42,868 bases of DNA from an uncultured Bacilli bacterium (GTDB lineage Bacteria; Bacillota_I; Bacilli_A; RF39; UBA660), in contig CANQGF010000005.1 in NCBI GenBank assembly GCA_947601485.1, positions 1 to 42,868 of the forward strand. The letters run 5' to 3'. Positions 9,925-37,399 of the stretch are shown piece by piece. How positions within the stretch are numbered: the stretch's first letter is position 1; each line of letters begins with the position of its first letter. Under the pieces are notes generated by a model. The model did not search any database. It had not been told where the DNA came from and saw only the letters and a list, made by a program, of their open reading frames with translations. The translations under genes and the position numbers were made by a program.

Positions 9925-12900
9925 TTATCTTCCTCGATTGATTGAAGTTCGTAAATTTTTATTGATATCAGCAATTAAATCTTCTATAGCTCTTTTTTTA
10001 GCTAACTCTTCTGAATCCCATTTATTAACATTTAATTCAGCTAAACTTTTAGGATTAATATCACAAATGATATCTTCATCTATTTCATCATAATGAAAAG
10101 TTATAGAACTTAAATTGGTAAAGATTTTAAGTAACAAACAATTTCTCGTATAAGGCTTTATATAATTATCTAAAATAGAATATAAAATGCCATAATTATT
10201 TGAATCGTAATTGTTTAAAGTAATATTACTTAATTTATCTTCATCTTTACCAGTTACTTCTTTAACTGTTGATGGTATAGTAAGTGAAGAAATATTTTGC
10301 TTTTGTAACATATTTAAATCTATTTTTTCTAATCCTTCATTTAAAATTAAACCATTTATCGATGTTCCTTTAAATATATCACCATTTATTCTTTTTAAAG
10401 TTTTAGGCATTACTACTTCTTTATCTTGTGCATCTCTTCTAATGCCCTCTAAAATTCTCTTACTAATGGAGTCATCCAAATTATCATCTACAACAATTTC
10501 TGTAATGTCCTCTGGCATAAAAAAGAAATTTTCCGGTTTAGAATAATAAGCATCTTTAGCATCATCACTAATTAAATTTTCTCTGTCTTTTAAATAGACA
10601 TTATTACTAATTAAATGATATAAATTATAAAAATCTTGACTAATTAAAAATTCTCTATCTTCATAATATAGCTTAACTTCTTTATCACTACCAATATAAT
10701 AATTTAACATACTAAATGTTTTTAAAGATATTTCTTTGGAAAATTTAAATGTCGATTCATCTACAATAGAAGAAGGAATTTTAAAGTTTTCACAAAACTG
10801 AAATATACTATTAGGATTTTGTAAAATAAATAGCATATTTAATAAATAATCATTTGATAATATTTCTTTTTTATCAAAATCAGAATGATTATTTTTTAAT
10901 ATATCTCTAATTAATAATTTAATCTTTTCTTTTACAACATCTTTATAAGTAAATGCCTTACTATTATTAGGTTTATTAAATGCTAAAATATCATCTACAA
11001 TATCATAATAACATTGTAACTCTTCATTAGTCATCTCATCATTTATGAAAGACTTTCTAATCCCATTTTGTTCACTTGTTAAAATAGTAAATTTTATTTC
11101 ATAAAAATATTTCAATACATCAGAATTAATTAAACCATAATATGAATAAACAACTAATTTATTTTCTAAATCTTCTAAATTAGCAGTAAATTCTTTCGGG
11201 TTATTAGCTAAATTCATTAAGTAATCTTCATTTAATTTTTCTCTTTCATCTTGATGACTATTAATATAATTTTTAAGTTTTAAATCAATATTACTTAAAT
11301 CAATTAATAACTCGGGAATATCACTTCTTAACTCCATTCTATCTTCTTTAGGTAAAATATTTTGTAATCTTTGAAATTTTTTTCTTTTATCTTGTAAAAT
11401 ATCATTAATATGTTCCACAATAGTTAAAGCATATATTTGTTCATTATTTAAATCACTATTTAATTTAGAAACTTTAATATTAGATAAATTAATATTAATA
11501 TCAAATAAATTATCGATATGAATAACGAGTTCTTTAAAATTGCCATTTTTAAATAACAAGTGATTTTCATCTTCCGCTACATTATTATTTAAAATATTTA
11601 ATAAATTTTCTTTATCTAATAAATGATAATTAGTTGGATTAACATTCAAAATAATTTTTTCTAATTGATAATAATCAAAAGCATAAGGTCCAACTTTCTT
11701 AACTGATGAAGGAAGAGAAACTTCTTTAATTTGTTGATATAGAAAAGCTTCATCTTTTATTTCTTCTAATCCATCATTTAGAACAATGCCTTTTAAAGTA
11801 TTATCATAAAATAATTTATGAGTTCCAGAAATTGATTTTAAACTTTTTGGAGTATATAAAACTTTACCTTTACAATCATCATTTATTTCTTCAACTAAAC
11901 ATTTTTCAACCGTAGTTAAGGTAGCATTTTTAGTATCTTTTAAAGCTGTTATACCAAGAGGCATAAAAAATTTCTCTTCATCAATTACATATTCACCATC
12001 AACTAAATTTTTAAATAATAAATATAAATTATAATATTCATTATTGTTAAAATCTTCATTTGCATCAACTTTTTGACTATTTTTAATGGCACTTTCTAAA
12101 TAACAAAACATCTCCATCGTAATTTGATCTTCTAATTCAATTAAATGATCAGGATAAAAATTACGAGAAACTTGTAAGTTACGATAAAACTCTAAAAATC
12201 TTTTTTTAGAATTAAATGAACATAATAAATTTATTAAAACATAATCTTTTAAAATAATTTCATAATCAATTTTTTCTACTTCATTTAATTTATAAATTCT
12301 TTTAATTATTTCGATATATTCTTCAATATTATCACTATATAACTTATTAAAAATACGATTCTTTTTGGTAATAATTTCTTCAAGTAAATCTTCCACTATT
12401 CTTTCATAATATAATAATTCAAGTTCATCAGTTTGTTCATTAACAAATAAAGGAAATAGTCCATTAGAAGATATTGTTAAAGCTTGAAACTTTATAGAAT
12501 ATAAACTATATAAATCATTATCATTAATAATGTTACGCCCATAATCTGCAAAAAGACGAAATCTAGTTTCAACTTGTTTAATTTGCTCTAATAAATAATC
12601 TTTATTTTCTAAAGTTGGAGATATACTTGATAATTTATTTAATTCATCATCTTTTTCTTTTAAAATAGACTCTTTATTTTGATAAGCAAATATTTCAATT
12701 TTTCTTTCAAGTGTAGCTAAATCTTGGTAAATACTTTCACTATTTTTATTTAATTCAATTTGTTCTTCTTCTGGTAAAAAAGTTTGTAATAAATTTAAAT
12801 CAAAGATTTTTTCTTCTAAACTTTCATTTATTTCTAAATTAGCTTCTTCTTGTAAATTACGTCCTTTCATAGCATTTTCTAAATATAGAGCGTATTCATT

Positions 12901-13440
12901 TAAATCAGCATATTTATTTTTATCAATAAATCGATATACACTTTCTATAGTATTAATTTCTTCCGTATCTAAAGTATCAAGAGATAAAGATAAACTATTT
13001 ATAGCGCTTGTTATCATAGTTTTTTTTCTGCCATTTAAAATAGAATATTCTTTTTTAATTTCTAATAGGGCAATTAATCTAGCACTAGCTTCTTCTTGTA
13101 ATTTATCGATATCACTTTTATATAATTTAAGTTTTTCTATATTTATGGTGAAATCTACTTTATCATCAAAACCTTCATCATCTAAAAGATCTTCTTCAAA
13201 AGAAATTCTTAATAAAAGTTCAGTAAGCATATTTATATCTTCATTTAATTTTTTATCTTCCAAAGCTAATATATCATAAGACTTCATATTCTTTAAAATA
13301 TTTAAATATCTATCTTTATAAAAATCAACTAAAGTATCATTATGAAATTCTTTTCTAGTGATGTTTCTCAATGGCTTATTTATGGTATTTGCATTATTAT
13401 TAGGAATGTCATCTTTACTTTTTTTAGAAAAAATACTCAT
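9925..13440 (-). CDS. Giant cytoplasmic protein with two helical + leucine-rich units
   Basis: This 1171-residue protein has no signal peptide or membrane segment, so it should be intracellular. It contains an internal duplication with an offset of about 473-482 residues. Unit 1 spans about 211-665 and unit 2 about 685-1135. Paired landmarks are LLQTFLPEEEQIEL (218) with RLQNILPKEDRMEL (691), FFMPLGIT (491) with FFMPEDIT (973), and GIVLNDGLEEI (551) with GLILNEGLEKI (1030). SLPSSVKKV (575) also pairs with TIPSTVKEV (1054). Each unit has a long charged helical part followed by a short block resembling BspA-type leucine-rich repeats (LRR_5). BspA-type repeats are usually on secreted proteins, so a cytosolic example is odd. 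It has its own promoter and terminator. No enzymatic motif is seen and I do not recognise the family; a scaffold or binding role is only a guess. Confidence 0.8.
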   Translation of the reverse strand: MSIFSKKSKDDIPNNNANTINKPLRNITRKEFHNDTLVDFYKDRYLNILKNMKSYDILALEDKKLNEDINMLTELLLRISFEEDLLDDEGFDDKVDFTINIEKLKLYKSDIDKLQEEASARLIALLEIKKEYSILNGRKKTMITSAINSLSLSLDTLDTEEINTIESVYRFIDKNKYADLNEYALYLENAMKGRNLQEEANLEINESLEEKIFDLNLLQTFLPEEEQIELNKNSESIYQDLATLERKIEIFAYQNKESILKEKDDELNKLSSISPTLENKDYLLEQIKQVETRFRLFADYGRNIINDNDLYSLYSIKFQALTISSNGLFPLFVNEQTDELELLYYERIVEDLLEEIITKKNRIFNKLYSDNIEEYIEIIKRIYKLNEVEKIDYEIILKDYVLINLLCSFNSKKRFLEFYRNLQVSRNFYPDHLIELEDQITMEMFCYLESAIKNSQKVDANEDFNNNEYYNLYLLFKNLVDGEYVIDEEKFFMPLGITALKDTKNATLTTVEKCLVEEINDDCKGKVLYTPKSLKSISGTHKLFYDNTLKGIVLNDGLEEIKDEAFLYQQIKEVSLPSSVKKVGPYAFDYYQLEKIILNVNPTNYHLLDKENLLNILNNNVAEDENHLLFKNGNFKELVIHIDNLFDININLSNIKVSKLNSDLNNEQIYALTIVEHINDILQDKRKKFQRLQNILPKEDRMELRSDIPELLIDLSNIDLKLKNYINSHQDEREKLNEDYLMNLANNPKEFTANLEDLENKLVVYSYYGLINSDVLKYFYEIKFTILTSEQNGIRKSFINDEMTNEELQCYYDIVDDILAFNKPNNSKAFTYKDVVKEKIKLLIRDILKNNHSDFDKKEILSNDYLLNMLFILQNPNSIFQFCENFKIPSSIVDESTFKFSKEISLKTFSMLNYYIGSDKEVKLYYEDREFLISQDFYNLYHLISNNVYLKDRENLISDDAKDAYYSKPENFFFMPEDITEIVVDDNLDDSISKRILEGIRRDAQDKEVVMPKTLKRINGDIFKGTSINGLILNEGLEKIDLNMLQKQNISSLTIPSTVKEVTGKDEDKLSNITLNNYDSNNYGILYSILDNYIKPYTRNCLLLKIFTNLSSITFHYDEIDEDIICDINPKSLAELNVNKWDSEELAKKRAIEDLIADINKNLRTSINRGR

Positions 13441-22884: not shown

Positions 22885-24138
22885 TCATTGCCCAACTAAA
22901 ACCAATTTATCGATTTGCTTTATATAGGTTGAATCTTCCAAAACGCTTACCATAACTTTACCACTACCAGATGCATGAATAATATAATGTTTGTCATTTT
23001 TAGTACCAATATACAACATAACATGTCCATCCATATAAAGCAAACTTGGATCTTTTTTATCAATTAACTTTAATTTTTCTTCATCAGTCATACCACTTAA
23101 TGAAATATCCTTTCCAACAGATTTATTTTGACTAGAAGTATTTCTTGGGAAGATAAAACCAAATGTACGGTAAATATTAGCTATAAAGCTTGAACAATCA
23201 ACATTTTTATCGTAACCACCCCAGCTATAAGATACACCCTCATATTTATACGCTTCATTAATAACATTTACTTTCGTATAAGGTAAATAACCAATATTAA
23301 TTTGATCAGAAGGAATTACAACTTCGGTTTTGCCAACATAACCATCACTATTTTTCATAGGTAAAATGAATTTACCATTATAATAAGGTAATTTTACGCT
23401 CATATCTAATGTAACATTTCCAACAATATAACTACTAGATATAATAATACCAAAAGAATCATTATTTATAAAATAGTTATAATCATCATCATTAGCTAAT
23501 CCTATATTAGCACATTCTACCCATCCCATATAAATTGGACTAATTACAAAGTTCCATTTTTGATCACTACTAGTATGTAAAATTAAAACCCCTGTATTAA
23601 CTAATAATTCTGTTTCTTGCAAACGATCAAAAGGACTATTTTTGGCATCATAAAAATTTGTATTAGTTGGGAAACTTCTTAAATTGGCTCTTTTAACTAT
23701 AATACCTTTTTGAATATTATCTAAATCTTTAATATTATCTAAATTACGATTATTTAAAATTTGTTTTTTTTCACTACTAGTAATAACTTTTTTATTATCA
23801 TAATAAGTACCTGATGGTAAATCATACTTTAAAATATATTTTTCAATTTCTTCTTTTGATAATTTTTTAATGTTATTTAAATCATATAATTCATCGGTTT
23901 TACTTTTAATTATTTCATTATATTTCTCAATTTCTTTTAAACTTAACAAGATACTATCATCAGCATCATCTGTATAATTATTTCCATAATTCACATTAAT
24001 TTGTACTTTATCATTAGGTACATACCTAAAAGTATCAATTTTTACATAACGATTGGGATCTCGTATTATTAAATAAGTAAGAAGCAACATAATGATAATT
24101 AAAGCAACTAAAATAAAAACTAATATATTTCTATTCAT
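22885..24138 (-). CDS. Membrane-anchored NlpC/P60 cell-wall hydrolase with SH3-like region
   Basis: This NlpC/P60-family enzyme probably cleaves D-glutamyl-diamino-acid bonds in wall peptides. The ATG at 24138 is preferred because GGAG lies 5 nt upstream; an in-frame ATG at 24153 has no RBS. A membrane segment (about 4-25) anchors it outside. The middle (about 140-285) carries bacterial SH3-like stretches beginning IIVKRANLRSFPTN. The catalytic domain is about 290-417, with Cys315 in VDCSSF, His372 in GHVMLYIG and a third polar residue near His388 in HASGSG. The WGG(Y) element before the cysteine is typical. The architecture resembles YkfC/YgiM-type enzymes. It has 48 bp between itself and the next gene upstream. 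Confidence 0.88.
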   Translation of the reverse strand: MNRNILVFILVALIIIMLLLTYLIIRDPNRYVKIDTFRYVPNDKVQINVNYGNNYTDDADDSILLSLKEIEKYNEIIKSKTDELYDLNNIKKLSKEEIEKYILKYDLPSGTYYDNKKVITSSEKKQILNNRNLDNIKDLDNIQKGIIVKRANLRSFPTNTNFYDAKNSPFDRLQETELLVNTGVLILHTSSDQKWNFVISPIYMGWVECANIGLANDDDYNYFINNDSFGIIISSSYIVGNVTLDMSVKLPYYNGKFILPMKNSDGYVGKTEVVIPSDQINIGYLPYTKVNVINEAYKYEGVSYSWGGYDKNVDCSSFIANIYRTFGFIFPRNTSSQNKSVGKDISLSGMTDEEKLKLIDKKDPSLLYMDGHVMLYIGTKNDKHYIIHASGSGKVMVSVLEDSTYIKQIDKLVLVGQ

Positions 24139-24201
24139 ATTATCTCCATTCATTTTAAAATTTTGTATATATTATATTATAACACTAAATAATATTATTA
24201 T

Positions 24202-25744: not shown

Positions 25745-25768
25745 AAGTAGGATGTTTATTTCCTACTT
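25745..25768 (-). terminator. Terminator of the M60-cohesin-like operon
   Basis: The arms AAGTAGGA (25745-25752) and TCCTACTT (25761-25768) form an 8-bp stem with an 8-nt loop, followed on the minus strand by TTTTTATTTT. The stop codon of the cohesin-like gene lies inside the stem. Confidence 0.8.
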
Positions 25769-26902
25769 CTTTCTCTTATTTTTTATAAAAATTAAAGTTC
25801 CAATACCCACTACAATAACAGCAACATAAGCAATTATAAGATATTTCTTATCTTCATTATTTTTTTGTTGATTAGTTTCTTGTGTACTATCTTGTTTGTC
25901 ATCTTCTTTATCATTATCATCTACAACTTGATTGTTATCATTTTCATCATCTTTATCATTTGGTTTACTATTGTTATTAGATGAATTATTATCGTTTTTA
26001 TCTTGACTACTTTGGCCATTATTTGTAGTATTCTCTTTATCATTAGTATTTTCAGAAGAATTATTTTCATCTTTTTTATCTTCTTCAGTATTTCCAGGCT
26101 TATTTTCACTCGGAGTATCTTCCTTATCACTAGGAGTATCTTCGCTTGGTGTTGATGGAGTATCTGGAATTACTGGATTGCTTGGATTTTCTTCTTCTTT
26201 ATCTGATGGCTCACTTGGTGTATTGGGATTTGTTGGTTGTTCTTCTTCACCAGGTTTTGTTTCACTTTCACCAGGATTAGATGGTTTATCTTCACTAGGA
26301 TCTTTGGGTGTATCCGGATCAGTTGGAGTATCTGGTGTATCTGGCGTATCAGGAGTATCTGGTTTACTAGGTGTGTCCGGATCAACTGGTGGATTAGGAT
26401 TGCTTTCTTCTTCTTTACTTACAATATAAGTAAAACTATTTTCTTCTAAAGAAAAATTATCTTTATCTATAATTTGATTTTTCCAATCATTACCAATAAT
26501 AGAAATCTTATTTAATTCAAAATTATATGAAACATTCTCTTTAGCACTTGAAGTAACAACAATATTTCCTAAATTTAATACCTTTTTATTGTTTAATAAA
26601 TTATGTTCAGTACCAACACCACCACAAGTAATCTTAACATTTACAACATTGTTTTTATTAGTAGTTATTACATCACAACCATTAGTTTTTTCATTATATT
26701 TAATTTCTTTAAAATTAACATTATTATTAATTTTAAATTCTAAGTCTAGTCCTCCGACAAAACCGGCATCAAAAGTAATTTCAGCGTTAACTTCCCCATT
26801 ACTAACTTCTTTTAAATTCATTATTGTTTTAGCATAAGCTGAAGAAAAAGGAAGAAGTATAAAACCAGCTAATAAAATTATATAAGTTAAAACACGTTTC
26901 AT
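25763..26902 (-). CDS. Membrane-tethered cohesin-like protein with Pro/Asp-rich stalk
   Basis: The 379-residue protein starts with a signal peptide ending near FSSAYA|KT (residue 24). Residues about 25-155 form a beta-rich domain with cohesin-like features (GEVNAEITFDAGFVGGLDLEFKI; KVLNLGNIVVTSS); the similarity is by pattern only. Residues about 165-345 are a long disordered stalk: first PDT repeats, then Asn/Asp/Glu/Lys-rich sequence. A membrane segment (about 355-374) ends in the stop-transfer KNKRKK, so the N-terminal domain is displayed outside on a flexible tether. There is no LPXTG. It starts 16 bp after the dockerin-bearing M60 gene and shares its transcript. A plain adhesin or carbohydrate-binding domain is the alternative. 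Confidence 0.6.
   Translation of the reverse strand: MKRVLTYIILLAGFILLPFSSAYAKTIMNLKEVSNGEVNAEITFDAGFVGGLDLEFKINNNVNFKEIKYNEKTNGCDVITTNKNNVVNVKITCGGVGTEHNLLNNKKVLNLGNIVVTSSAKENVSYNFELNKISIIGNDWKNQIIDKDNFSLEENSFTYIVSKEEESNPNPPVDPDTPSKPDTPDTPDTPDTPTDPDTPKDPSEDKPSNPGESETKPGEEEQPTNPNTPSEPSDKEEENPSNPVIPDTPSTPSEDTPSDKEDTPSENKPGNTEEDKKDENNSSENTNDKENTTNNGQSSQDKNDNNSSNNNSKPNDKDDENDNNQVVDDNDKEDDKQDSTQETNQQKNNEDKKYLIIAYVAVIVVGIGTLIFIKNKRKK
26325..26360. repeat. Tandem 9-bp repeats coding the PDT stalk
   Basis: Four adjacent 9-bp units of the form GG(A/T/C)GTATC(T/A) encode the PDTPDTPDT part of the stalk. Degenerate copies flank them. Such repeats can change number by slippage and alter stalk length. 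Confidence 0.75.
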
Positions 26903-26918
26903 TTATACTCCCACCGCC

Positions 26919-29900
26919 CTATCTTTGTTCAGTAATGTTAACAGATTCAAGATTTTCATATGTATCTAGGTTAACAGCCATTGAAGAACTTGTAATTCTT
27001 TCACCATCAAGTGTTAAGGCATCAGATACACGATATAATACCGCTCTTATCTTGTTTGTTTCTTTTAACATTTCTTCATATTGTTCTTTACTCATAACGT
27101 AAATCCAAGTTCCTTTAGATACTTCATATACGGTTAAATCATCATTAACTTCTGCAAAAATAACTTGGTATCCGCTATATTTTTCTTCATCATTTGATGC
27201 ATTATTAATTGTTACAATATTAAATGATGGATTACCAGCATAAATACCTTCAAATATTACTGATCCAGCTTCAATTAAACCAATAATATTGCCATCTTCA
27301 TCACGATTATTTTCATTGCAACCATCTTTTAAGTAACAATAAGAAGTTTCTAATTTACCAATAGATGGTTTACCGTTGTTAGTAGCAAAATCAACATTAT
27401 CTCCAGGAGGGGCAATTAAATCAAGTTCAGCTCCTGAAATGCCTGATTTATTACCGACAGATTCAATCTTAATATAAGATACATCATGATATGTCCATAG
27501 TTGAGTTTGACTAGTAGTATTTTCGTTCATAAAGTAAACAGTATTAGTAAATTCATTTTCACTATTTAAATCAAAAGTACCTTCTCTTGCTACTGTCCAA
27601 TGTTCTTTATCACTACTTACAGAAATACGATATTTACTAATTGTATCAATATCAAGTTCACCATCTTTACTGTAGGCACGATATTTGATACCACTTAATG
27701 ACATTTTAGTATTTAAACTAATAATTACATAAGCATCATTATTATCAGTTGTAGTATCAACTTTGTTATTGCTAGAAACTAAAGTTTTAATTCTTTCATT
27801 ACCATTAAACCATGTAGCATTATCACCATCAATCAATTTATTAACACCTAAAGTTTTATAATCAAGATTATCATCTTCAAAATCGACAATCTCACCATCA
27901 ACTTTAAAATTAGATTCGATTGAGAATGTATCTTTTTTAATACTACCATCATGAGCTACTTTAACTTCATCTAAAGTAACTTTATTAGTTTTATTTAATA
28001 ATTTATCGTAAGCCACTACTTCATAAGTAAAGGCACGATTGTTAACAGAACCGATGTTATCAACAAATTCATGAATAGAACCATCTACAAAAGCAATAAC
28101 TTCACCATTACGAATAATTTCATAACCTAAAATTTTATCACTTTCTTTATTAACATCAAATGTTAAAGCAATTCTTTTTTCACTATCATCTTTAGAAATA
28201 ATGCTTGCAGATACTTTGGTGTCATTTGAAATTTTTGTGCCATTATTTAATCTATATCTTCTTGCTTCATCATTTAAATAATATATAGCTTTATCTTCTT
28301 TTGGTAAATTTTTAGATGCTATTTCTTCTTTTAATTCATCAGTTGCTTTAATCCCCCATACTTCGAAATAATCTGTTAAATCCTTACCAGTAGCAATACT
28401 TGCAAATAGAATTAATAAATCATCTTTACTATAATTTTTAGTATTTTTATAAGTTCTTGATTCAATATTTATTCTTGAGAAAACAGAATTAATATCATCG
28501 AAAGTTTTATTATCATCATAAGCTAAATGTAATTGCCAATACATACCTAATGTAACGAAAACATTTTGGTTACGACCTAAAGTATGTGATGTTACTTTAT
28601 CATAAATTTTTTCATAAATTTGACTATTTTCAAGTCTAGATACATCTTTATCATTAGCGGTTTGAGCAAGTAATGAATAAACATTATTTGTAACTTCCGC
28701 AAAAACGATATTACCTTGATTTATTTGGTGTCCAACTTCATGACTAATTCCCCAGCCAAAATAACCAGTTTTAGCATCAGTATTTCTTCTACCTTGAATA
28801 ACACCAGCGATAGAACCATATTCAATACCTATATGATATCCACCAGCATACATAAATGCACCATCAAACATTCTCATATAGCGAATGTTAATTCTTGCTT
28901 TAGGTATTTCATTGGTACTTACAGAGGCATTTTCTTCTAAACCTTTATGACGATAGAACATTTCCATCATTTCATTAAAAGCCTCCGTTGATTCAAATAA
29001 ACGATCAACCATTTCGTCCATATTATTTGTACCAGTTTCCAAAGCATCTAAAACAGCTTCAGCAGAGAATGACCATAAACCATGACGAGTAACAATTTCT
29101 GTTACACCAAATACACCAGTAGTTTTATCATAACTATATGGATTTTCACTATCTTTATATATTTCACTATATAATGTTGGAAGATTAGTTACATATTCTT
29201 TTAATGTTGTAATATATTCTTTAATAGCTTCCTTTTTCTCAGTATCACTTGTAAGTAGAGTTGTATCAAGCATAGGAATTTTAACTCCACCACTTACTCT
29301 TACTTTTATTAAATTATTTTGATCTGGTTTAGAAGTATATCTAATATATACACTTCCACCTCTTTCACTAGTTGCACTTCCAATTTTAGGAACATTAATT
29401 ATATTTTGACCTTTCTTTAAAGATACACTCTTACTCCAAGCATTAGCTTCAGAATAATTTTGTGTAAATAATAATTCAACATTAACGTTACCTTTTGTGC
29501 CAACATAAACAGTTAATTGGTCACCTTCTTTAACAGAAATGCCTAAAGGTTGATAATCATTAATTGTCATAGCAAAACCTAAATGACTATTATAACTATT
29601 AGAAATATTAGGATTTAAGACAATAACATCATTTAATTTTTCATCATTTAAGATTTTTTCAGCATAATCTAAATCATTCAAAATTGATTCACGGTAAGGA
29701 TTATATTCTCCATTACTTTTAATATCCGCTCTTTTTCTTAATTCTTCAATTTCATCTTTAGTTACACCATCAACAAGTTCTACTCTTAAATCATCTTTAA
29801 ATAGGGCTGCAACATCATCAACTAAAGAATCATATTCATATAATTTAAATTCTGATACTTGAATTAAACTACCATTACCAGCAACAGTAAGGCCAAATTG

Positions 29901-32144
29901 TAAAGCATTAGCTTCTATTGGTTCATCTAATTTTAAGACATAGTATTTTCTTTTATTTTCATCTTCTTTAACTGTTATTTTAGCTTGAACTGTTACTCTG
30001 TTACTAGAAGTTTTTTCGCCATCAGTATTCCAATATCTTATAACGGCATCATTATTATTTGTAGATTTATAATTAAATTGATAACTATCGGGAACAGTAA
30101 TAACAAATTCATCCATTAAATAAGTATCATCTAATACAATCATTGGAGCATTCATAGATTCGTAGTGAGCATTTACTTGCCATCCTTGGAATTCCCAATA
30201 TGATGTATAATCATCATCAACTAAAGCCCATTTATCACTATCAGTTACATTATTATCTTTATCTTTGATATATGTTTTACCATCTTTAAAAATAACATCA
30301 TTTATATGGTCAGTTCTTTGTAATGTATCATTATAACCATTAATTAATTTATATTTTGGATATATTGTGGCAGTTTGTTCTAAAGTAGTTGCAGAAACTG
30401 TTTGTGATTTATCACCTTCACCTAAATCATTATTACCAGTTAGATAAGCTTCATATTTAGTTTGGGCTTTTAAACCACGTAATGATTTACTTGTTCCGTC
30501 AATTCTTTCAATAACTTGCCATTCGGTTTCACCAACTTCACGATAATATAAATTATATGATTTGGTATCATCCATAGCTTTCCAACTAAAATCAATACCT
30601 GAATATGTTGGAGTAGCTACAACCATGTCAACTTTAGGTGGTACTCTTGTAGCTTTTGGCTCTGCTGTATAAACTTTACTCCAACCACTACGCCAATCTT
30701 GATTTACTGATCTAACTTGAATTTCATATTTGTTATAATTCTTTAAATCTTCAATCGTAAAATTAGTATAAGTAGTTTGGAAAATGACATTATTCATTTT
30801 ATTACCATTAATTTTAATTTCATATCCAGTTACATTAGGAACACTTTCAAAACTAACAGTAACTTGTTCACTTTTAGAATCATCTATTTCTACATATTTT
30901 GGAGTGTAGAAATTTTCTGGTTCTTTAGCTTCATATTTTACATTATTTAAAAATTCTACTTTAGCAATATCAGCTAAATTATTAGCTCCAGCTTTATTGA
31001 TAACAATCGTTACCTTCTTAACAGCATATTGATTACCAAGTTTAATTTCTCTTGTACCTTCAGTTATTTCATCAGTAAATAAATGAATTTCATTTGTACT
31101 TTCTGCAATACTTTCTTTTGGTATTTCATGTTCAATTAATTTACCATCTTCAGTTTCAATAACTATTTTAGCATCTTCTGGAACATTTGCACCAAAGTTA
31201 ATTCTAACAACACTCATGTCAATATGAGAATCTTTTTCTTTACCTGATAAATCTAAAGCTACTTCAATAGGATCTTCTCCATTTTGTTCAAGAGATACAA
31301 CACCATCATCAGAAAAAATGGTATCAAGACTACTACTACCTTCAGCTAAAGTGGCAGAACTTACTTCTAAAGAAACATTATCATTAGATAAAATAACATC
31401 AGTATTTTCTAATTTAGCTTCTTTTTTATTGCCTTTCATAATGGCAGTAATATAGTTTAAATCAGCTATATCAACAGATCCATCTAAATTTAAATCTTTA
31501 GATATGTCACTTTCTTCCATTGCTTTAAGCATAGCTGTAATATCTTCTTCATTAACTACATTATCTTTAGTAACATCGCCAATTTCAAATAAACCTTTTT
31601 CATTAGTTATACTTAATCTTTTAGAATAATCATCAAGTGTTACATCTTTACTATAAGTTACAAAATTAGTACCACTTAATTCAATTTTATATGTTCCTCT
31701 TATAAGTTCATATAAATTTACCGCAAAGTATACTACATTGGCATTATGATCAATTCCAGATAATAAATTACCTTTTTCGTCACGTTTTTTAGCTGTTACG
31801 CGAATATTTTGTTCACCTAAAGTTATATTAGTGTCTAAATATCCATCAATAGATGCTAAAACATCTTTCAAACCAACGGAAGCATGATTACCACTGGCAT
31901 CATAAATAGTTAAGGAGATATCACTAGTTCCTGTATTTCTAATTGGTAATAATAAATGAGTTTCTACTTCAATATTACCTTTAGGAACGATACCATTATC
32001 TTCTAATTTTGTTGTATTAGAAATAGGTAATGTTTTTTCAACTTTTCCATCTGTTAAAGTTAAAGCTACCGCAACCGGAGAGAAATAATTAAAGGTTACT
32101 GCCCCAACTAAAATAGATGATACAACTTTTTTAATTCTTTTCAT
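26919..32144 (-). CDS. Secreted M60 mucin-type metallopeptidase with dockerin
   Basis: The 1741-residue secreted protein has a signal peptide at about 1-28 and an N-terminal beta region. A type I dockerin follows at about 188-240, with two Ca-binding loops, D190-x-T-x-D194...D201 and D217-x-N-x-D-G...D228. After a beta region at about 245-405 come two FN3 domains (about 410-497 and 502-590) and a discoidin/CBM32-like domain (about 600-774). The M60 (enhancin-like) catalytic domain spans about 855-1240, with zinc motif H1135-E1136-V-G-H1139 and downstream E1150. A further FN3-like region (about 1320-1410), a discoidin-like domain (about 1425-1590) and an unassigned C-terminus end it. M60 enzymes cut O-glycosylated mucin-type proteins, and the discoidin-like domains would hold the glycans. 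No cell-wall anchor is present. AAGGA lies 8 nt before the ATG. The cohesin-like gene follows after 16 bp. Confidence 0.9.
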   Translation of the reverse strand: MKRIKKVVSSILVGAVTFNYFSPVAVALTLTDGKVEKTLPISNTTKLEDNGIVPKGNIEVETHLLLPIRNTGTSDISLTIYDASGNHASVGLKDVLASIDGYLDTNITLGEQNIRVTAKKRDEKGNLLSGIDHNANVVYFAVNLYELIRGTYKIELSGTNFVTYSKDVTLDDYSKRLSITNEKGLFEIGDVTKDNVVNEEDITAMLKAMEESDISKDLNLDGSVDIADLNYITAIMKGNKKEAKLENTDVILSNDNVSLEVSSATLAEGSSSLDTIFSDDGVVSLEQNGEDPIEVALDLSGKEKDSHIDMSVVRINFGANVPEDAKIVIETEDGKLIEHEIPKESIAESTNEIHLFTDEITEGTREIKLGNQYAVKKVTIVINKAGANNLADIAKVEFLNNVKYEAKEPENFYTPKYVEIDDSKSEQVTVSFESVPNVTGYEIKINGNKMNNVIFQTTYTNFTIEDLKNYNKYEIQVRSVNQDWRSGWSKVYTAEPKATRVPPKVDMVVATPTYSGIDFSWKAMDDTKSYNLYYREVGETEWQVIERIDGTSKSLRGLKAQTKYEAYLTGNNDLGEGDKSQTVSATTLEQTATIYPKYKLINGYNDTLQRTDHINDVIFKDGKTYIKDKDNNVTDSDKWALVDDDYTSYWEFQGWQVNAHYESMNAPMIVLDDTYLMDEFVITVPDSYQFNYKSTNNNDAVIRYWNTDGEKTSSNRVTVQAKITVKEDENKRKYYVLKLDEPIEANALQFGLTVAGNGSLIQVSEFKLYEYDSLVDDVAALFKDDLRVELVDGVTKDEIEELRKRADIKSNGEYNPYRESILNDLDYAEKILNDEKLNDVIVLNPNISNSYNSHLGFAMTINDYQPLGISVKEGDQLTVYVGTKGNVNVELLFTQNYSEANAWSKSVSLKKGQNIINVPKIGSATSERGGSVYIRYTSKPDQNNLIKVRVSGGVKIPMLDTTLLTSDTEKKEAIKEYITTLKEYVTNLPTLYSEIYKDSENPYSYDKTTGVFGVTEIVTRHGLWSFSAEAVLDALETGTNNMDEMVDRLFESTEAFNEMMEMFYRHKGLEENASVSTNEIPKARINIRYMRMFDGAFMYAGGYHIGIEYGSIAGVIQGRRNTDAKTGYFGWGISHEVGHQINQGNIVFAEVTNNVYSLLAQTANDKDVSRLENSQIYEKIYDKVTSHTLGRNQNVFVTLGMYWQLHLAYDDNKTFDDINSVFSRINIESRTYKNTKNYSKDDLLILFASIATGKDLTDYFEVWGIKATDELKEEIASKNLPKEDKAIYYLNDEARRYRLNNGTKISNDTKVSASIISKDDSEKRIALTFDVNKESDKILGYEIIRNGEVIAFVDGSIHEFVDNIGSVNNRAFTYEVVAYDKLLNKTNKVTLDEVKVAHDGSIKKDTFSIESNFKVDGEIVDFEDDNLDYKTLGVNKLIDGDNATWFNGNERIKTLVSSNNKVDTTTDNNDAYVIISLNTKMSLSGIKYRAYSKDGELDIDTISKYRISVSSDKEHWTVAREGTFDLNSENEFTNTVYFMNENTTSQTQLWTYHDVSYIKIESVGNKSGISGAELDLIAPPGDNVDFATNNGKPSIGKLETSYCYLKDGCNENNRDEDGNIIGLIEAGSVIFEGIYAGNPSFNIVTINNASNDEEKYSGYQVIFAEVNDDLTVYEVSKGTWIYVMSKEQYEEMLKETNKIRAVLYRVSDALTLDGERITSSSMAVNLDTYENLESVNITEQR

Positions 32145-32173: not shown

Positions 32174-32235
32174 ATTATAGCACACAAAAAAACTCCCTTC
32201 ACTTACATTATATTTAATACTTTGATTTTAGTCAA
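32174..32235 (-). promoter_or_regulatory. Tandem promoters of the M60-cohesin-like operon
   Basis: The distal promoter has TTGACT (32235-32230), exactly 17 nt, and a perfect TATAAT (32212-32207). A second -10 TATAAT (32179-32174) has the extended TGC just before it (32182-32180), so it may act without a good -35. Two strong promoters fit high expression of a secreted enzyme. Confidence 0.75.
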
Positions 32236-35608: not shown

Positions 35609-37399
35609 TTAAACGCATGGATGTGGACAATCACTACATTTATATACTTCTTTTTTCCTAACTAATTTTAAACTTTCTCCTTGATTTAATATAACTGGTT
35701 TCTCTTCACCATGACATAATAAAACATCATCCAAATAATTATACATTGACATATATTTTAGATGATTTTTTACTAATTCCCATCCCTTTTTCGTTATAAT
35801 ATGAACAGGTATTTTTATTCCCACTTGCGCTATAGCGTTAGGTTCTATATATTCCTTTACATATTTGGAAGCACAAGACCAAATAATATCAGCGTTATTT
35901 AACATGGTTAATGCCGTCTTTTCATCAATTCCCGTAGAACATAAACCAAACTTATAAATAGTTATATTATCTTTTTCTAATTCTTTAAGTTTTTCCATAA
36001 ACTCATTATCTTTAGAAGCTAATGTAACCGCAATTCTTTTATATCCCCTACTTATTGCTTGCTTTACTCCTTCAATTTGGTTTATTTCGCCAGTGTAAGG
36101 AAATACAGGAATAATGCCAGCTGCTATAGCAGTCTTTGTAATTTCTTCAGATGGACTTGTATAAAATAATCCTGTCATTCTTTTAACAGCACCTTGCGTA
36201 TTTGAATCCGTAGTGGTAATTATCGATCCCAAATTATTTGATACTATAACAGCAGCATCTAATAATCCAGATTTAAAAGCGGAAGATATTGTTTCACTAG
36301 CTCCAAATAACACATTGGTTTCACAAGAATTAAGAGGGCGACTAGTATCAAAATATCCGGCTTTAATTACAATTTGATTTATTAAATTACACATTAACTC
36401 ACTTTGCTTATCTTTATCAATAACATCCAAGCTACTTAATAATTTTTCTGCCACCTCCCCTCCAACTTCTTTTAAAAGTTTTACAATGAGAGGACAATAC
36501 TTAATAGGTATAGGGGTGGCTTTTACTGCGGTTAAATTACCATCTATTTTTTGGATGATTACAAAACTACCAAACATTCTAGTAATATGCATTTCTCTTT
36601 CAGAATAAAAATCTCTAATAATTGAATTTATGCCTTTAGCAACTTCAAAATTATTCCAATTATGCCAATCATTTAAATATAATACTAATTCATCATTAAT
36701 AATTTTTATATCTAATATTTCCGAATCAAAATGCAAACCAAAACTAAATTTTTTATCATCAAATTTAGTTAGAAAATACTCCACTAAACCTCTTTGTTGA
36801 AAATAATTATAATAATCTCTTTCTTCTTTATTCATATCAAAATATTTTTCAACATGCGGATTTTTTAGTGGGATAGAATATTTATATACTCTTCCTGTTT
36901 TAGAATAAAAATGCTTTAAAGTCCCCTCTAAAACTTTGGTATCTTCCTCATTTGTTTGATATAGAAGTAAAGATTCATTACTTGAATTTAAAACTTGTGA
37001 AGTTTTTCGTTCTCGATAATAATCTAAAACTTTATTCTTTAATTTTTCTTCATATTCAAAAATATTATCATTATTATATAAGTTGTAACGACTATAATCA
37101 CTTCTTGCCTGATAGAATGCTCTTTCATAATCATAATCCATTAGTAAGTAATACTCAATACCGATTCCATCTCTTGCTTCATAAGCAGGAAATACTGTAT
37201 GTTCTGTTACTCCAGATAAAATAACTTCTGGATCATTGAACCCCAATTTTTTATAAATCTTTATTGGATCATCTACCCAACCAAAATCCCAAAGATCAAT
37301 AAGCAATGCTTCATTTATCAAATTTGTAAAGCTACCATCTTCCTTGACATATCCCTTTTTAGTCTCTAAAACATATTTCAATCCATCATGGCTTGCCAT
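35609..37399 (-). CDS. DUF2099 (methanogenesis marker 8)-like fusion protein
   Basis: This 596-residue cytoplasmic protein has two halves. The C-terminal half (about 365-565) carries LFGASETISSAFKSGLLDAA, GAVKRMTGLFYTSP, AISRGYKRIAVTLAS and ADIIWSCASKYVKEYI. By memory this is the layout of DUF2099, known as methanogenesis marker 8 in archaea; I could not search it. The N-terminal half (about 1-330) is unassigned, with DFGWVDDPIKIYKKLGFNDPE near the start and a small beta segment near 215-260. The protein ends in a cysteine cluster, CSDCPHPC, which could hold a metal or an iron-sulfur cluster. GAAGGA lies 6 nt before the ATG. It is divergent from a LysR gene, with a palindrome between them. 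The substrate is unknown. Confidence 0.55.
   Translation of the reverse strand: MASHDGLKYVLETKKGYVKEDGSFTNLINEALLIDLWDFGWVDDPIKIYKKLGFNDPEVILSGVTEHTVFPAYEARDGIGIEYYLLMDYDYERAFYQARSDYSRYNLYNNDNIFEYEEKLKNKVLDYYRERKTSQVLNSSNESLLLYQTNEEDTKVLEGTLKHFYSKTGRVYKYSIPLKNPHVEKYFDMNKEERDYYNYFQQRGLVEYFLTKFDDKKFSFGLHFDSEILDIKIINDELVLYLNDWHNWNNFEVAKGINSIIRDFYSEREMHITRMFGSFVIIQKIDGNLTAVKATPIPIKYCPLIVKLLKEVGGEVAEKLLSSLDVIDKDKQSELMCNLINQIVIKAGYFDTSRPLNSCETNVLFGASETISSAFKSGLLDAAVIVSNNLGSIITTTDSNTQGAVKRMTGLFYTSPSEEITKTAIAAGIIPVFPYTGEINQIEGVKQAISRGYKRIAVTLASKDNEFMEKLKELEKDNITIYKFGLCSTGIDEKTALTMLNNADIIWSCASKYVKEYIEPNAIAQVGIKIPVHIITKKGWELVKNHLKYMSMYNYLDDVLLCHGEEKPVILNQGESLKLVRKKEVYKCSDCPHPCV

Follow-up and report, generated by a model that had tools for sequence, protein, structure and literature searches.

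Gene Pair and Domain Organization

The window analyzed here is a whole stretch of 42,868 nucleotides (nt) from an uncultured Bacilli bacterium (GTDB lineage Bacteria; Bacillota_I; Bacilli_A; RF39; UBA660; assembly GCA_947601485.1, contig CANQGF010000005.1), and its minus strand carries two neighboring genes, one for a secreted M60 metallopeptidase with a dockerin close to its N-terminus and one for a smaller, membrane-anchored partner protein (Table 1). The original prediction had described a two-gene layout at 25763..32144, and both open reading frames (ORFs) were confirmed at exactly these coordinates, 16 nt apart, with the ribosome-binding-like sequence GGTGGGAG lying in the gap, 5′ of the partner gene start. 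A single frameshifted gene was also considered and rejected, since aligned relatives show a separate start and a signal-like N-terminus in the partner. Sequence comparison suggests that the pair forms a surface-attachment unit, in which the partner probably holds the M60 enzyme at the cell surface; the two proteins would bind each other in a calcium-dependent manner, and their genes are presumably co-transcribed. Promoter-like sites are frequent in this AT-rich DNA (61 found against 47.8 expected), so that the one upstream of the M60 gene counts as weak evidence. The possible terminator hairpin of the partner gene equals the expected count (1 found against 1.0 expected), and the scan listed it for the plus strand only.

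M60 peptidases are recognized by an HExxH zinc motif followed by a downstream glutamate, and the enzyme in the window has both (HEVGHQINQGNIVFAEV at amino acid (aa) 1135), together with a PF13402 match far above the family cut-off (E-value 2.4e-18; 67.1 bits against 25.8). Its membership in this family suggests that it may cleave O-glycosylated mucin. Beyond the N-terminus, the highest hydropathy over 19 aa is 1.19, with no strongly hydrophobic stretch, whereas the partner ends in a disordered stalk and a transmembrane segment; this division, an enzyme lacking an anchor beside a small protein that has one, had been anticipated and is borne out. The N-terminal domain of the partner, which we regard as a putative dockerin receptor, is marked by the motifs GFVGGxD and HNLLNxKKExLG. 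The window's copy contains cysteines at aa 76 and 93 (26624-26677), a residue absent from this domain in the 48 other aligned partners, and a disulfide private to this protein is possible.

Table 1. Features of the M60 gene, the partner gene and their surroundings.
Feature	Position in window	Strand	Residues	Basis or remark
Promoter-like site TTGACT-17-TATAAT, upstream of M60 gene	32207..32235	-		11/12 match, highest of the region
M60 metallopeptidase, secreted, without membrane anchor	26919..32144	-	1741 aa	ORF and PF13402
Putative M60 signal peptide	32061..32144	-	1-28	Sequence reading; N-terminal 19-aa hydropathy 1.63
N-terminal X-like module, before dockerin	31587..31988	-	53-186	Aligned in window and 33 relatives
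Dockerin	31425..31586	-	187-240	Loop 1 D190-D201, loop 2 D217-D228; loops and profile
Fibronectin type III domain	30666..30902	-	415-493	PF00041, 40.7 bits, two stretches
M60 catalytic region	28353..28985	-	1054-1264	PF13402
Zinc motif HEVGH	28728-28742	-	1135-1139	Motif position
F5/8 type C (CBM32-like) region	27537..27836	-	1437-1536	PF00754, 22.8 bits, below cut-off 28.2
Membrane-anchored partner protein	25763..26902	-	379 aa	ORF; directly 3′ of M60 gene
Putative partner signal peptide	26831..26902	-	1-24	Sequence reading
Putative dockerin-receptor domain, no known family	26414..26830	-	25-163 (139 aa)	Alignment and searches
Disordered stalk	25853..26413	-	164-350 (187 aa)	Composition: 97% D/E/N/K/P/S/T/Q/G
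C-terminal transmembrane anchor	25781..25843	-	354-374	Basic tail NKRKK, no LPXTG
Hairpin at partner gene end, then minus-strand T-rich run	25745..25768	-		Possible terminator; weak

Conservation of the Pair

Of the 385 genomes searched in the order, 41 match the receptor domain at an E-value of 0.01, 36 of them strongly (8e-12 or better). It is also present in 38 named contigs of the genome_contigs collection, a biased sample because its search patterns were derived from this clade. Both the domain and the pair occur in a further family of the class; in the samples searched, of 395 and 392 genomes, no true match lay beyond the class. Together these searches gave 60 distinct loci, namely the window, 38 loci L060-L097, 12 in L136-L139, L141-L145 and L150-L152, five in L175-L179 and four in L182-L185; no two of their partner sequences are the same. 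All 36 strong matches of the order search are among these loci, some through their genome_contigs copy, and duplicates were counted once (L140 repeats L097; L018-L023 and L025 are repeats of loci within L060-L097). Genome G108, in which the start of an X-dockerin M60 is present and the contig ends before the partner's place, lies outside the 60.

An M60 gene stands directly upstream of the receptor-domain gene at 58 of these 60 loci, and such adjacency rules out a chance pairing. The upstream M60 is N-terminally complete at 54 loci, with a dockerin of two loops in 53 and of one loop in the remaining one (L179); at four others (L062, L066, L067, L073) it is cut by the contig and is 56-60% identical to the window M60, cut and fragmented M60s having been identified by blastp against the latter. 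At L065 the contig begins just upstream of the partner gene, leaving no upstream DNA. Among genomes of the same genus, the X-dockerin occurs once in seven of the eight that bear the partner and is contig-cut in the eighth (G018); a further weak match was seen in G012 (E-value 0.012). The original prediction had spoken of a one-enzyme mini-cellulosome, of which the combination of a dockerin enzyme without anchor and an anchored neighbor is strongly supported by these counts (58/60 loci; dockerins in 54/54), while the word cohesin is not, as will be seen below.

Several weaker matches were read at the ORF level and set aside: L146, L147 and L148 (E-values of 0.001-0.007) as well as L180 and L181 are unrelated, and eight other places, with E-values of 5e-4 or above, belong to different proteins. 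For two weak matches of the order search, in G218 and G210, the frame that matched is interrupted by stops. At L142 (963-2546; genome G405) the partner gene is kept with only M60 fragments beside it, and this partner may have outlived its enzyme or may use another one. All 38 contigs of L060-L097 come from uncultured Bacilli bacteria with isolate names beginning "Lapin-", the French word for rabbit, so that the habitat, that of the window's bacterium included, is probably the rabbit gut; the names hint at an enrichment there.

Anchors in Cis and a Proposed Anchor in Trans

A survey of 117 genomes of the order located 15 M60 places, among which ten have the X-dockerin in the same ORF, one is cut by its contig and four have no dockerin that could be seen. 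Each of these four (L153-L156) has its own low-complexity stalk and its own transmembrane segment at the C-terminus, with hydropathy values of 2.25-3.14. The loop, hydropathy and mirror-tree tests used a set of 49 pairs that leaves out L151 and L182-L185; in it, no 19-aa stretch beyond aa 70 of the dockerin M60s exceeds 1.53, and 48 of the 49 partners reach C-terminal values of 1.74-3.49. The exception is L079 (7908-8354), where a full-length dockerin M60 is accompanied by a partner ORF of 149 aa that lacks both stalk and anchor. M60 systems of this order thus have their anchor parts in one of two places, on the M60 enzyme itself or on the partner of a dockerin-bearing enzyme, and no other finding speaks as strongly for the docking model as this pattern.

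The same pattern bears on the idea that the partner is not an anchor and instead serves the M60 enzyme from the membrane, as chaperone, inhibitor or maturation factor. Strict adjacency of the two genes would be equally expected for such a helper, but it would leave both the dockerin and the missing M60 anchor unexplained, and a low-complexity stalk of 187 residues suits a spacer better. Moreover, the M60s without visible dockerin bear the same stalk and anchor parts themselves; of the genomes that encode them, G089, G149 and G166, taken as searched, are not among the partner-domain matches, and in G169 the partner domain adjoins that genome's other, dockerin-bearing M60. We therefore consider a helper role highly improbable and return to docking.

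The Dockerin and Its X-Like Module

The two calcium loops that had been read directly from the sequence are both present, and the dockerin is recovered by profile in spite of a Pfam score below the cut-off. PF00404 gives 15.1 bits (E-value 0.028) on the window protein and 18.6 bits on the region alone, under the cut-off of 22.9, and a search of the window's own genome at an E-value of 0.001 or less matched only another contig and not that of the window. A profile of 34 sequences (the window and 33 relatives), on the other hand, matches solved dockerins (5lxv_B at 1.9e-6; 1daq and 2mte at 1.6e-4), and the M60 of relative L175 exceeds the Pfam cut-off at 26.4 bits. When module and dockerin are taken together, the profile finds X-dockerin (XDoc) chains, weakly, over both parts (4wi0_B at E-values of 0.01 / 0.0089; 4u3s_B at 0.031 / 0.018).

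In most relatives loop 2 reads DLNLDGxVDIADLNY, and position 3 of loop 1, which is mostly N among them, is T in the window. Conservation across the relatives is higher in loop 2 than in loop 1, which hints that the dockerin may have a single binding face; the helix after loop 2 differs in distant relatives.

Is the Putative Receptor Domain a Cohesin?

The N-terminal domain of the partner had been described as a beta-rich, cohesin-like domain. The beta-rich part of this description agrees with the hydrophobic periodicity of the aligned family, which is of the beta type in 97 of 133 windows for the receptor domain and in 91 of 129 for the cohesins of the order, weak evidence that does not by itself identify the fold; the cohesin-like part did not find a counterpart in Pfam, the Protein Data Bank (PDB) or profile comparison. 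The partner protein has no PF00963 match in a Pfam scan, an NCBIfam scan likewise revealed no cohesin homology, and PF00963 was absent in sets of 8, 39 and 13 scanned family members at a threshold of E 10, with the filters of HMMER dropping most matches above about 0.1 despite that threshold. The most divergent relative, taken alone, has a match to DUF3153 (20.8 bits, just under the cut-off of 21.4). Searches of the PDB with single sequences (phmmer) and with profiles found no cohesin match either; a Pfam-recognized cohesin of the order also misses the PDB cohesins in a single-sequence search, so that such misses mean little.

Profile-profile comparison of the receptor domain with four cohesin sets of the order gave P-values from 0.0064 to 0.46. 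The best of them, against all cohesins of the order and colinear over about 70 columns, is better than anything reached by decoys (M60 segments) and the X module (0.034 at best), but the reversed-alignment control attained 0.0058 for one cohesin set (up to 0.25 for others) and 0.013 against all cohesins together, and the cohesin subfamilies of the order detect each other at 4.4e-6 to 2.1e-17. A further comparison gave local values of 0.0066 forward and 0.023 reversed, and global values of 0.24 forward and 0.012 reversed. The profile search against cohesin families that had been suggested as a check thus ended with no match and a score equalled by its reversed control, and the cohesin label is not supported by sequence.

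The domain may be a cohesin whose sequence has drifted too far to be recognized, or it may be a dockerin receptor with a different fold; in either case it likely works like a cohesin. A true homologous jelly-roll cohesin, as first envisaged, is slightly favored: the length that follows the signal peptide, about 140 aa, would fit, as would the beta-type periodicity and the comparison with all cohesins together, and the PDB misses carry little weight; against it stand the values of the reversed control beside those of genuine cohesin subfamilies, and PF00963 matches in none of the 39 and none of the 13 scanned members. To our knowledge, cohesins are the only dockerin partners so far. It seems rather unlikely, on the other side, that the domain represents a new family of non-cohesin dockerin receptors, a second, independently evolved socket that would act one-to-one with M60 enzymes in at least two Bacilli families.

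Cohesins of the Genome and the Order

The window's own genome (94.7% complete) has one receptor domain and one X-dockerin, and its only other dockerin and its only Pfam-recognized cohesin belong to a second pair on contig C48; the several cohesins and several dockerin enzymes of a cellulosome or mucinolysome were not found in it. In the C48 pair (L024, 4889-8170), a protein with SH3 and a double dockerin, presumably glucosaminidase-like, is followed by the cohesin protein, which also bears a transmembrane-like segment and a cadherin-like domain. It resembles the M60 pair in gene order, with the dockerin protein directly upstream of the cohesin protein, and differs from it in that the dockerin is C-terminal and double and the cohesin, recognized by Pfam, is followed by a cadherin-like domain with no low-complexity stalk. 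Across the order, a dockerin motif was present in the gene directly upstream of the cohesin at nine of 28 loci, or at 13 of 28 if four degenerate tails judged by eye are included; the 28 derive from 30 loci fetched out of many more places, L100 and L116 being omitted since they lie at contig ends. Cohesins of the order often occur in very long frames (about 2200-4000 aa; L098, L102, L106, L109), suggesting large surface proteins.

With a recognized cohesin on a protein that has a transmembrane-like segment in the same genome, the M60 dockerin might bind that cohesin, and the partner, a stalked beta-type domain that could be an adhesin, would then be a separate glycan- or mucin-binding protein that merely shares the operon. 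The C48 cohesin gene, however, already has a double-dockerin gene directly upstream, and the partner domain was never seen away from M60 except at L065, where upstream DNA is missing. Furthermore, G078 (94% complete) has the pair with no PF00963 match at an E-value of 0.001, and G105, G138 and G169 have the pair and are absent from the PF00963 match list, so the M60 pair seems not to need a canonical cohesin. An arrangement of this kind is accordingly improbable, and docking of the enzyme to its adjacent partner is retained.

A Model of One-to-One Docking

In the model that we propose, the M60 enzyme would be secreted without an anchor, carrying its N-terminal X-like module and dockerin, and the N-terminal domain of the partner would bind that dockerin. 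The disordered stalk and the transmembrane segment would hold the receptor domain out from the cell membrane, so that anchoring is achieved in trans and one-to-one, with a dedicated socket for each enzyme in place of a scaffold for many. A conserved trans-anchoring pair is well supported by the comparison of sequences, while the cohesin label is unproven.

Several observations weigh against this model. The receptor domain has a limited spread within the genus (8 of 38 genomes, once each), and its profile similarity to cohesins does not rise above the reversed control. Loop 2 of the dockerin lacks D or N at position 9 in L139, L141 and L143, and at L179 (4533-9728) loop 1 is lost and loop 2 kept (YDLNSDNVVNLLDL), yet the pair persists. 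Dockerin-type stretches also occur in G074, G080 and G120, which are not among the partner-domain matches, as weak matches to the X-dockerin profile at five places in other open frames (E-values from 1.6e-6 to 2.3e-4). As for the comparison of anchors, two of the M60s with their own anchor (L154, L156) are N-terminally cut, so the lack of a dockerin is shown only for L153 and L155, and all four belong to a remote branch of M60s that shares 22-23% identity with the window enzyme, so that the comparison is not one between close relatives. Finally, co-divergence was measured by the mirror-tree approach after L143, L178 and then pairs with less than 8% M60 divergence had been dropped (45 of 49 pairs left). 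Partner-domain distances track the dockerin no better than other M60 segments, since it ranks 24 of 83 windows in this set and 20 of 83 in a set of 34 pairs, in which the maxima lie just after the dockerin (aa 231-330).

As a separate observation, the partner domain at L179 is strongly diverged and its M60 pair is distant.

Relation to Known Systems and Neighboring Genes

The M60 pair shares with cellulosomes an enzyme dockerin with two calcium loops and a non-catalytic surface protein as proposed receptor. It differs in that one enzyme and one single-domain receptor, without cohesin repeats, are encoded by neighboring genes, that the anchor is a membrane segment, and that the receptor domain is not recognizable as a cohesin. 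The nearest system in the listed literature is the mucinolysome of the gut bacterium Limousia, for which growth on mucin has been shown. It comprises five scaffoldins, two of them with tandem cohesin repeats, 21 dockerin carbohydrate-active enzymes (CAZymes) and, in strain ET540, six dockerin-containing peptidases; Pfam profiles for cohesins and dockerins served to detect them, in part through weak signals (PMC12997984). Both systems would thus have dockerin-bearing enzymes, peptidases included, in a gut bacterium, but a scaffoldin system for many enzymes there contrasts with one enzyme and one receptor here, and the term M60 is absent from the main text of its report (PMC12997984). The same source describes Clostridium perfringens, in which single cohesin modules (X82) form pairwise complexes of host-glycan enzymes (PMC12997984); there, as far as that account goes, another glycoside hydrolase carries the cohesin, whereas here the receptor stands on a stalked membrane anchor with no enzyme.

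The M60-like (PF13402) peptidases described in an earlier survey resemble the window enzyme in the catalytic family and in companion domains of the fibronectin type III and CBM32 type; that survey gives dockerin counts of 2 and 2 only, and its main text does not contain the word cohesin (PMC3267712). Among the matches listed by a literature search over titles and the start of abstracts, no dedicated one-enzyme M60 dockerin receptor was found, which is no proof of absence, and no cohesin-dockerin pairs were described in this order, with subscription papers and preprints mostly outside the scope.

Elsewhere in the window, three further proteins were annotated. The first (9925-13440; 1171 aa) has BspA-type leucine-rich repeats (PF13306) and is likely a surface protein; the second (22885-24153) combines SH3 and NlpC/P60 domains (PF12913, PF00877) and is likely a cell-wall hydrolase; the third (35609-37399; 596 aa) matches at 178 bits DUF2099 (PF09872), a family whose description mentions conservation in archaea.

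Implications

If the proposed docking is true, plugging of the cohesin-dockerin type would attach single enzymes as well, and not only assemble scaffolds that hold many enzymes. Bacteria with small genomes would use it as a simple means of attaching enzymes of a mucin-linked protease family, and scans with cohesin profiles would miss such systems. The M60 enzyme and its partner would, moreover, provide a new plug-and-socket pair for protein display.

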